Assembly (NCBI GenBank): GCA_025998755.1
Contig: AP024674.1
Location: forward strand, 1,788,162 to 1,852,161
Reading direction: 5' to 3'
DNA length: 64,000 nt
Source of the DNA: Armatimonadota bacterium
GTDB lineage: Bacteria; Armatimonadota; UBA5829; DSUL01
Position 1 is the first letter of the stretch, and each line of letters starts with the position of its first letter. Both the position numbers and the translations under genes were made by a program. Below the pieces are notes generated by a model that was not told where the DNA came from, did no database searches, and saw only the letters and a list, made by a program, of their open reading frames with translations. This document shows, one piece after another, positions 807 through 50,997 of the stretch.

Positions 807-1766
807 ATGCAGGACCAGGAACGTACGATGCTGGCGGGCGGAGCGCCCGACGCGGGACGGACCCAAGCGCTTCCTCAGGCGGAGGCCACGCAGATGGGCG
901 CATCGGTGGAATGCCCGGTCTGCCGCTCCCGCAACATTCCAGGGGATCTTTTCTGCTGGGACTGCGGATTCCTGCTGACGGGCACTCCCGGTGAGGCTCC
1001 GGAGGCTCCTCGCGGACCTACCGCGAAGCTTGTTGACCCACGAAGCGGACGCAGCTTCGCGCTGCAGAAGGGCCTGAACACCGTGGGACGGCAGGACACG
1101 GACGTGCTGCTGAGCGACCCGAGCGTCAGCCGCCGTCACGCAACCATTGAGGTTCGCGAGTCGGATGCCGTGGTCACAGACACCGGCAGCACCAATGGAA
1201 CCCTCGTGGCGGGAACCCGTCTGGGAGAGGGTGAGCAGGCCGTCATCAGCGCAGGGCAGGAGGTTCGCTTCGGCAATTGTGCGCTGATCTTCGAAATGGA
1301 AGCCGTGCAGGAATCATCAACTGGTGATGAACCGCCCGACGCCGAAGCTCAGTCCCCGGGGGAAGCTGTTGCGGAGGTAACGCCGGAACCGGAGCCGGAG
1401 GGCGAAGAAAGGTTGGAGGAAGCCGGGCCGTCCGGAGCCGCAGAGGCTGAGGAACTCTCCGGTCAAGCCGTTGGGGTTCTGACAGTGAGGGAGACAGGGG
1501 AGCGATTCACTGTGGGGCCTGACGGAGCGAGCATTGGAAGGCGGTCCAGCAACGACATCGTGCTGTCCGATGCCTATGTCTCGGGCCAGCACGCCATTAT
1601 TGCATTCCGGGACGGCGCGTTCCACCTGACTGACATCGGAAGCACGAACGGAACACTTTTGAACGGCAACCGTCTTGAGCCGAACGTGCCGGCAGAGCTT
1701 TCCGCCGGCGATGAGATCCGGATGGGTCAGCTGACCCTTGAGTTCTCCCTGGAGGAGGCGGGGTGA
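807..1766 (+). CDS. zinc-ribbon protein with two FHA domains
   Basis: The 319-residue product begins with a low-complexity stretch, then a zinc ribbon with Cys36, Cys39, Cys50 and Cys53 (CPVC and CWDC). Two forkhead-associated domains follow at about 74-163 and 223-317. Each has the classic phosphothreonine-binding signature: GR, then SRRH or SGQH, then a D.GSTNGT loop. An acidic Glu/Pro/Ala linker joins them. FHA domains bind phosphothreonine, so this is likely the adaptor that reads the output of the kinase encoded at 2827-4512. A ribosome-binding site (GAGGGAGG) precedes the ATG. The stop overlaps the start of the phosphatase gene, indicating translational coupling. Confidence 0.9.
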   Translation: MQDQERTMLAGGAPDAGRTQALPQAEATQMGASVECPVCRSRNIPGDLFCWDCGFLLTGTPGEAPEAPRGPTAKLVDPRSGRSFALQKGLNTVGRQDTDVLLSDPSVSRRHATIEVRESDAVVTDTGSTNGTLVAGTRLGEGEQAVISAGQEVRFGNCALIFEMEAVQESSTGDEPPDAEAQSPGEAVAEVTPEPEPEGEERLEEAGPSGAAEAEELSGQAVGVLTVRETGERFTVGPDGASIGRRSSNDIVLSDAYVSGQHAIIAFRDGAFHLTDIGSTNGTLLNGNRLEPNVPAELSAGDEIRMGQLTLEFSLEEAG

Positions 1767-50568: not shown

Positions 50569-50579
50569 GTGAAAAAAGT
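50569..50579 (+). promoter_or_regulatory. conserved upstream element of small RNA 1
   Basis: GTGAAAAAAGT ends 21 bp before the -35 box. The same 11 bases occur at the same distance before the second unit (50745-50755). It could be an activator site or a displaced A-tract UP-like element. Confidence 0.6.
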
Positions 50580-50600
50580 GCAAAAAGTTTCGGCACCCTC

Positions 50601-50629
50601 TTGCGCAACCGGCCGGCGTCCGATATTAT
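50601..50629 (+). promoter_or_regulatory. promoter of small RNA 1
   Basis: TTGCGC and TATTAT with a 17-bp spacer. Initiation is expected near 50635-50637, directly at the conserved hairpin. Confidence 0.65.
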
Positions 50630-50634
50630 GACTG

Positions 50635-50706
50635 GTGAAAGCTTCCCACCCTCCTTTCACCTCCCCGGTGGACCCTGAAAGTTCACCGGGGGGTTTCTTT
50701 TTCTGG
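50635..50706 (+). ncRNA. tandem small RNA 1 with anti-Shine-Dalgarno-like hairpin
   Basis: The predicted transcript of about 70 nt starts with a hairpin: GTGAAAG (50635-50641), loop CTTCCCACCCTC, CTTTCAC (50654-50660). The segment CCTCCTTTC equals nine bases of the conserved 3' tail of bacterial 16S rRNA, so it could pair with ribosome-binding sites. A terminator (stem CCCCGGTG/CACCGGGG, 50663-50691, then a T-rich tail) closes it. The hairpin is identical in unit 2 while promoter and terminator sequences differ. No ORF fits. I do not recognise a described family. Confidence 0.65.
50663..50706 (+). terminator. terminator of small RNA 1
   Basis: CCCCGGTG (50663-50670) pairs with CACCGGGG (50684-50691) and is extended inward by GA/TT pairs. 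It is followed by GGTTTCTTTTTC. Confidence 0.8.
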
Positions 50707-50744
50707 CTTCTTGCGTCCGCCCGGCTGGCGGGACGAAAGCTGAT

Positions 50745-50755
50745 GTGAAAAAAGT
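50745..50755 (+). promoter_or_regulatory. conserved upstream element of small RNA 2
   Basis: GTGAAAAAAGT, 176 bp after the first copy and again exactly 21 bp before a -35 box. Confidence 0.6.
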
Positions 50756-50776: not shown

Positions 50777-50805
50777 TTGCGTGCAGATTGGCTGAGAAGT
50801 ATAAT
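50777..50805 (+). promoter_or_regulatory. promoter of small RNA 2
   Basis: TTGCGT and a perfect TATAAT with a 17-bp spacer. Initiation is expected near 50810-50812. Confidence 0.75.
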
Positions 50806-50809
50806 AGTT

Positions 50810-50877
50810 GTGAAAGCTTCCCACCCTCCTTTCAGAGAAGCCCGGCGGACCACGCGGTTCGCCGGGCTTTTTCTTTG
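50810..50877 (+). ncRNA. tandem small RNA 2 with anti-Shine-Dalgarno-like hairpin
   Basis: The same hairpin as unit 1: TGAAAG (50811-50816), identical 12-base C-rich loop, CTTTCA (50829-50834). A different but stronger terminator follows (AAGCCCGGCG with CGCCGGGCTT, then TTTTCTTT). The transcript would be about 65 nt. Its terminator ends 120 bp before the ABC transporter ATG, so an alternative reading is a leader attenuator of that operon. The independent promoter and the upstream duplicate argue for a free small RNA. Confidence 0.68.
50838..50877 (+). terminator. terminator of small RNA 2
   Basis: A ten-pair stem (50838-50847 with 50860-50869) is followed by TTTTCTTT. Confidence 0.85.
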
Positions 50878-50997
50878 TGCACCTTGCCAACCCTGAAATC
50901 TCCGGGTGACGCCCGCGTGCGTGACGCCGTTCACCATTTGGGGCACACTCATCCCGGCTCGTCCCACCCAATCCTGAAAAGGAGATCACAGAAAAGG

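Follow-up and report, generated by a model that had tools for sequence, protein, structure and literature searches.

The window, by which we mean the whole 64,000-nucleotide stretch of Armatimonadota DNA analysed here, carries two adjoining predicted small-RNA genes that have an identical 25-mer, GTGAAAGCTTCCCACCCTCCTTTCA, in common. They are flanked on one side by an 836-codon reading frame and on the other by a frame that we take to encode an ABC-transporter ATPase, and each is preceded by promoter-like hexamers and by one copy of the 11-mer GTGAAAAAAGT. The features are given below, with conservation in the same-genus genome (G001).

50569-50579, + strand: A-tract element 1, GTGAAAAAAGT, identical in the same-genus genome; start of the A-run 29 bp ahead of the -35
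50582-50586, + strand: second A-run, A5, starting 19 bp before the -35 of copy 1; A6 in G001
50601-50606, + strand: -35-like hexamer TTGCGC of copy 1; 6/6 kept in the same-genus genome
50624-50629, + strand: -10-like hexamer TATTAT of copy 1, after a 17-bp spacer; 6/6 kept in the same-genus genome
50634-50703, + strand: small RNA copy 1, with predicted transcript ends; hairpin 50634-50661, loop CTTCCCACCCTC at 50642-50653, terminator stem 50662-50692 and T-rich tail
50745-50755, + strand: A-tract element 2, GTGAAAAAAGT, identical in the same-genus genome; start of the A-run 29 bp ahead of the -35
50777-50782, + strand: -35-like hexamer TTGCGT of copy 2; 5/6 kept in the same-genus genome
50800-50805, + strand: -10-like hexamer TATAAT of copy 2, after a 17-bp spacer; 6/6 kept in the same-genus genome
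50810-50876, + strand: small RNA copy 2, with predicted transcript ends; hairpin 50811-50834, loop identical to that of copy 1 at 50817-50828, terminator-like stem 50835-50872

The window promoter calls rest on hexamers, spacing and conservation, and the second terminator on folding: a strict sigma70 consensus scan detected neither window promoter, and a terminator scan returned the terminator of copy 1 only (1 found versus 1.1 expected from shuffles), not that of copy 2. Folding gave z = -2.32 for copy 1 (5/200 shuffles equally good) and z = -5.05 for copy 2 (0/200).

Position, recurrence and conservation of the 11-mer

At both window promoters, 21 bp separate the end of GTGAAAAAAGT from the first base of the -35-like hexamer (50601 and 50777), and, as the original prediction had it, these two stretches are unrelated (5/21 identical in an ungapped comparison). 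The spacing was also taken to be fixed, which is not universally so: the same-genus genome has 22 and 21 bp, and an own-genome copy with an ECF-type promoter has 10 bp. The second A-run of copy 1 lies about one helical turn nearer the -35 than element 1. Allowing up to one mismatch, GTGAAAAAAGT occurs at 3 sites in the window, one of them overlapping the first element, where 0.29 would be expected (0/100 shuffled windows reached 3 such sites).

The proposed genome-wide search found the exact 11-mer four times on both strands of the own genome (3.29 Mb, a single contig), and three of these four sites lie just upstream of small-RNA copies. Its 10-mer core, TGAAAAAAGT, has 6 sites in the own genome, 4 of them upstream of small-RNA copies; it is thus present, flanks included, at 4 of the 8 own-genome RNA copies, where it ends 10, 21, 21 and 31 bp before the -35 of promoters that are sigma70-like and ECF-like. 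At the remaining two TGAAAAAAGT sites, no promoter was found within 100 bp by the patterns tried. Since the tandem window genes may be duplicates, their common element need not be convergent.

We then compared the orthologous locus of the same-genus genome, in which both 11-mers are identical (22/22). The alignment also keeps the -10s (12/12) and the -35s (11/12), while drift is seen in four other parts, 72/134 identical taken together: the promoter spacers (19/34), the tail and intergenic stretch (28/51), the DNA flanking element 1 on its upstream side (21/39) and the discriminators (4/10). Against this drifting background, the 22/22 identity suggests that the element is probably under selection within the genus. 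With a broader background of 167/237, which takes in the element-to--35 stretches and a conserved downstream stretch, the chance of 22/22 is 0.0005. Between element and -35, 20/21 positions are kept at copy 1 and 16/21 at copy 2; conservation at copy 1 thus reaches past the 11-mer, which does not stand out there. Beyond the genus, TGAAAAAAGT in its exact form is hardly kept at the RNAs: it stands at an RNA copy in 1 of 9 sites in G002 (on the opposite strand) and in 0 of 3 in G003, genomes in which 7 and 3 RNA copies, respectively, were found.

Farther downstream, window positions 50880-50950, from the second terminator to the ABC-transporter frame, are 63/71 identical in the same-genus genome, above other intergenic DNA here, and may serve the transporter genes as a leader or promoter.

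A multicopy small-RNA family with an exposed CU-rich seed

The own genome holds 8 copies of the RNA, which is about 70 nt long and has a terminator hairpin. The window pair accounts for two of them and a tandem array at 2721225-2721934 for four, and single copies lie at 2369081 and 1708228. A search of 101 genomes for the 25-mer with up to 3 mismatches found it in 4, all of family f1, and one further own copy came from the complement search described below. We built a covariance model from 19 copies (R1) and a sequence model from 30 copies of families f1, f3 and f5 (R2), and ran both on 291 genomes of the phylum. R1 matched 17/291 genomes at an E-value of 0.01 or better, 13 of them in the class, and R2 matched 21/291, 18 of them in the class. 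The RNA is present in 18 of the 28 class genomes (f1, 4/4; f3, 10/15; f4, 2/2; f5, 2/2; f2, 0/5).

Outside the class, the R1 matches in G040, G077, G138 and G273, and the R2 matches in G160, G172 and one of two in G100, were put down to chance, each wanting either a well-placed ECF-like promoter or a terminator-ended RNA. Weak R1 matches at L100 and L104 (G003) and L110 (G001) were dropped, G023:C32:111570 (E 0.008) and the second G100 match were left out of the reading, and the G022:C57 copy duplicates one on another contig. The viral contigs searched gave no match. Tandem copies also occur in family f3 (G005:C24, G007:C2, G015:C176, G022:C170 and G026:C61), where every copy has an ECF-like promoter and, judged by eye, a terminator to itself.

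No Rfam family reached its gathering score in the window. RybB (E 0.014, 24.1 versus 40 bits) and NsiR1 (E 0.077, 21.5 versus 39 bits) fell below the cut-off and, in our reading of the alignments, matched largely through the terminator hairpin; LhrC, itself an Rfam family, is not among the 8 weak Rfam hits in the window, and with this search as proxy no sequence or structure relation to it was seen. Among the matches listed in a search of open-licence literature, none dealt with small RNAs of Armatimonadota, which is weak evidence given that scope. The RNAs thus appear to make up an undescribed family within one group of Armatimonadota.

In the f1 copies the seed CTTCCCACCCTC occupies a loop of 12 nt above a GAAAG/CTTTC stem, which leaves the CU-rich motif CUUCCCACCCUC exposed. 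The loop is exposed in 6 of 7 folded f1 RNAs (the exception, L008, has a broken stem), and the exact 12-mer is found in 20/24 f1 copies. One copy, G002_6, has a compensated stem, GAGAG/CUCUC, with the same fold, and in some copies the stem is broken and the loop kept. Over 19 copies, 77.8% of cells were paired versus 73.7% in shuffled alignments (11/500 as high), the covariation score was equalled by 20/500 shuffles, and the count of pairs altered in both partners by 338/500; formally, the pair count favours the stem only mildly. In the four f3 and f5 RNAs folded, the seed is unpaired without a closing hairpin. The conserved core is the unpaired seed rather than the stem.

The seed resembles a piece of the own 16S 3' region, GGATCACCTCCTTTCTAAGG: CCTCCTTTCT occurs in 13/24 f1 copies and CCTCCTTTC (as RNA, CCUCCUUUC) in 17/24, both window copies included, the match of the window pair being nine letters long. 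A search for the complement GGAGGGTGGGAAGCTT at up to 3 mismatches yielded 71 sites, 8 of which belong to the RNA copies, versus 50 in a reversed control. Among 22 of the 63 other sites examined, 5 had a start codon and an open frame just downstream, and no convincing extended mRNA target was found.

Promoter types and upstream A-runs

Of 24 f1 copies, 14 are preceded by an ECF-like promoter (GGAAC-N17-CGT), 7 by a sigma70-like one, in which a TTG-type -35 and a TA...T -10 are 16-18 bp apart, and 3 by neither. In families f3 to f5, GGAAC-N17-CGT stands before 21/21 copies with readable upstream DNA; 22 were read, one G014 copy being left out as its contig ends before the promoter. The window pair has sigma70-like promoters and no ECF-like one, and the other such cases are G000_3, the same-genus counterparts of these three, and a weaker seventh, G002_4. 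The simplest history would be an ECF-read ancestor with a later change to sigma70-like promoters.

In the own genome, GGAAC-N17-CGTC occurs at 63 sites versus 38 in a reversed control, 5 of the 63 being RNA copies, and the stricter form GGAACYTT occurs at 3 sites, all RNA copies. Of 30 ECF-pattern sites read, only the one RNA copy included has more than half A+T in the 50 bp upstream; L116 and L121 have an A5 run amid GC-rich surroundings. None of the 19 Sigma70_r2 matches adjoins an RNA copy (nearest about 10 kb). Three ECF-pattern hits, G000:C1:2008472, 2188637 and 3245566, are alike, with the form GGAACATTTCCA...GTTCGTC and, in one, CACCCTCC inside; the trio looks like a dispersed repeat.

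We then looked upstream of all 24 f1 copies. A+T content is 0.67-0.70 at -70 to -51 from the RNA core and 0.55 at -50 to -41, against 0.31-0.46 across the eight bins that span -150 to -71, and the ten bases directly before the core are likewise AT-rich (0.68). An A5 run lies in the -80 to -45 zone in 17/24 copies, versus 0/24 in the adjacent upstream zone and 0-4/24 in eight further control zones. Among the 21 f1 copies with an assigned promoter (3 of the 24 having none), 16 have an A5 or longer run starting 15-40 bp before the -35 and 5 do not (own genome, 7/8; G001, 5/6; G002, 3/6; G003, 1/1). These runs are often not the exact 11-mer and are found with sigma70-like and ECF-like promoters alike.

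The A-runs of own-genome copies start at -18/-19, -29/-30 and -39 relative to the -35. Helical register was examined over three genomes, in 15 copies with an assigned promoter, G001 being omitted as a near-duplicate of G000 and three copies for want of a promoter. The A-run centres there are in phase at 10.5 bp (R 0.66), and a Rayleigh-type test with uniform placement as the null gave p = 0.004 for 14 A5+ runs and p = 0.003 for 17 A4+ runs, values that are optimistic because the set holds paralogues. In families f3 to f5, the 20 copies read have A or T runs upstream, in regions that look AT-rich, with no register visible by eye.

A generic pattern found no rRNA promoters, but two putative ones were picked out by eye. 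Both have an A-run whose start, 21 bp ahead of the -35, differs by about 2 bp from the register most common in the own copies (-19, -29), and one has a second at -8. A short terminator-ended gene of other sequence, L186 (G001:C326, ~1330-1510, minus strand), lies behind a frame that is presumably hemL; upstream it has TGAAAAAAGT 24 bp before TTGACA-17-TAACAT, plus a second A6 run. It gave no Rfam match at threshold and no tRNA, and is possibly a second, unrelated small RNA. With the L186 gene and the putative rRNA promoters, the A-tract arrangement is not private to the small-RNA family.

An A-tract reading of the element and its alternatives

Our preferred reading, to which we give a probability of roughly 0.6, is that GTGAAAAAAGT is a UP-element-like A-tract aiding two promoters of a multicopy, probably mRNA-pairing small RNA. 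The 11-mer would form the outer portion of an A-tract region by which each of two separate promoters is made more active, through the alpha C-terminal domains of RNA polymerase, through DNA curvature, or both. These promoters would drive two copies of the ~70-nt RNA, whose CU-rich seed probably pairs with G-rich ribosome-binding sites of mRNAs. The ancestral copies were probably read by an ECF sigma factor, and the sigma70-like promoters of the window copies would add a standing supply to the signal-induced one.

UP elements and upstream A-tracts of bacterial promoters were reportedly described by Ross in 1993 and Aiyar in 1998. The likeness lies in A-runs upstream of promoters, in roughly helical register and at the putative rRNA promoters too, and an A/T-rich tract upstream of the -35 was indeed found. 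The difference is one of position: with its start 29 bp from the -35 (~-64), the A-run of the 11-mer lies farther out than the classical UP region of about -40 to -60, so that the second run of copy 1 (~-55) falls inside that region and the A-runs of the 11-mers (~-65) just outside it. This distance from the -35 counts against the A-tract reading, as do the presence of TGAAAAAAGT with its flanks at half of the own copies, which make up 4 of its 6 genomic sites, the 5/21 copies that have no such A-run, and the wider conserved block at copy 1. According to the excerpted text of PMC4081817, an effect of UP elements farther upstream than -60 had yet to be demonstrated in E. coli, and A-boxes 10-11 nt apart are proposed as alpha-CTD contact sites; contacts of the alpha-CTD with UP sequences are named among possible helpers at ECF promoters in an extract of PMC5333181.

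The original prediction had left open whether the 11-mer is a regulator-binding site or a stimulatory A-tract. Its identity within the genus supports a function, and the element is real and probably functional; the A-tract fits better, given similar runs at 16/21 copies, at both promoter types and at the putative rRNA promoters, and in all likelihood the element represents a known kind. The co-regulation of both window RNAs that was also foreseen is plausible, but with ECF-like promoters at 14/24 f1 copies the element does not define a single sigma-factor regulon.

The dedicated-regulator option fits less well, yet the recurrence of TGAAAAAAGT at 4/8 own copies exceeds what A-richness alone asks. 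Here GTGAAAAAAGT, with its core TGAAAAAAGT, would be the site of an activator or response regulator that co-controls several RNA copies whatever their sigma factor, as LisR does for LhrC. Four of the 6 own sites stand before RNA copies of both promoter types, about one helical turn apart, the 11-mers are kept 22/22 in the genus, and there is a precedent in that the LhrC promoter region upstream of -53 was important in the search for a LisR-responsive element (PMC4132741, in part). However, TGAAAAAAGT is absent from the other 4 own copies, it is at an RNA copy in only 1/9 G002 sites (opposite strand) and 0/3 G003 sites, and differently flanked A-runs occupy like places, putative rRNA promoters included. 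We regard such a regulator as rather unlikely.

For the RNA itself, a role in pairing with G-rich ribosome-binding sites is suggested by analogy with three published systems. LhrC1-5 of Listeria are likewise multicopy small RNAs with CU-rich/UCCC sites, reported in the excerpted PMC4132741 to block target translation at the Shine-Dalgarno sequence; several copies with an exposed CU-rich motif were found here too (8 own copies), but LhrC has three such motifs per RNA and is tied to LisRK, whereas the present RNAs have one seed and ECF-like or sigma70-like promoters (PMC4132741, same extract). The 'cuckoo' RNAs alpha-r14/NfeR1 also combine an invariant unpaired anti-Shine-Dalgarno motif with varying stems, though theirs are three hairpins with CCUCCUCCC and ours one hairpin with CUUCCCACCCUC, or none (PMC10746234, in extract). 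GsrN of Caulobacter is ECF-sigma-dependent and pairs a C-rich 5' loop with G-rich mRNA sites, and ECF-like promoters precede most copies here, though not the window pair; GsrN is alphaproteobacterial, with six tandem C in its loop and another sequence, whereas the loop here is CUUCCCACCCUC (PMC5869019, in extract). By analogy, then, the RNA family would be of a known kind, the CU-rich anti-Shine-Dalgarno small RNAs.

A further alternative concerns the RNA and not the element: the RNAs might chiefly bind a protein through the CU-rich loop, as sponges like CsrB/RsmX with another motif, rather than mRNAs. Many copies with one short exposed motif, and a search that found no mRNA with an extended complement, would suit such a sponge. 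Against it, CCUCCUUUC, carried by 17/24 f1 copies and by the window pair, is part of the 16S 3' region and can pair with Shine-Dalgarno sequences, and published CU-rich or C-rich small RNAs pair with mRNAs in the extracts cited above; we hold a protein sponge to be unlikely. Very unlikely in our estimate, one factor may read TGAAAAAAGT at several helical turns and with two sigma kinds, while the RNAs with the 16S-end copy (CCUCCUUUC) hit many ribosome-binding sites; if true, a single signal would set the output of a dispersed anti-Shine-Dalgarno RNA array. That the common 11-mer is mainly a relic of tandem duplication of an RNA gene with its promoter, with no role of its own, agrees with the adjacent genes, their identical 25-mer and their like promoter type and spacing, but is highly improbable given 22/22 identity in the 11-mers versus 19/34 in the promoter spacers between two genomes of the genus, and the occurrence of the element at other distances before ECF-like copies.

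The 11-mer marks putative promoters of an apparently undescribed small-RNA family in Armatimonadota. The family offers a natural experiment, in which closely related RNAs have ECF-like promoters in most of the class, whereas one genus combines sigma70-like promoters with conserved A-tracts. With it, A-tract action could be tested directly with two kinds of sigma factor, as could an independent origin of CU-rich anti-Shine-Dalgarno RNAs in Armatimonadota.
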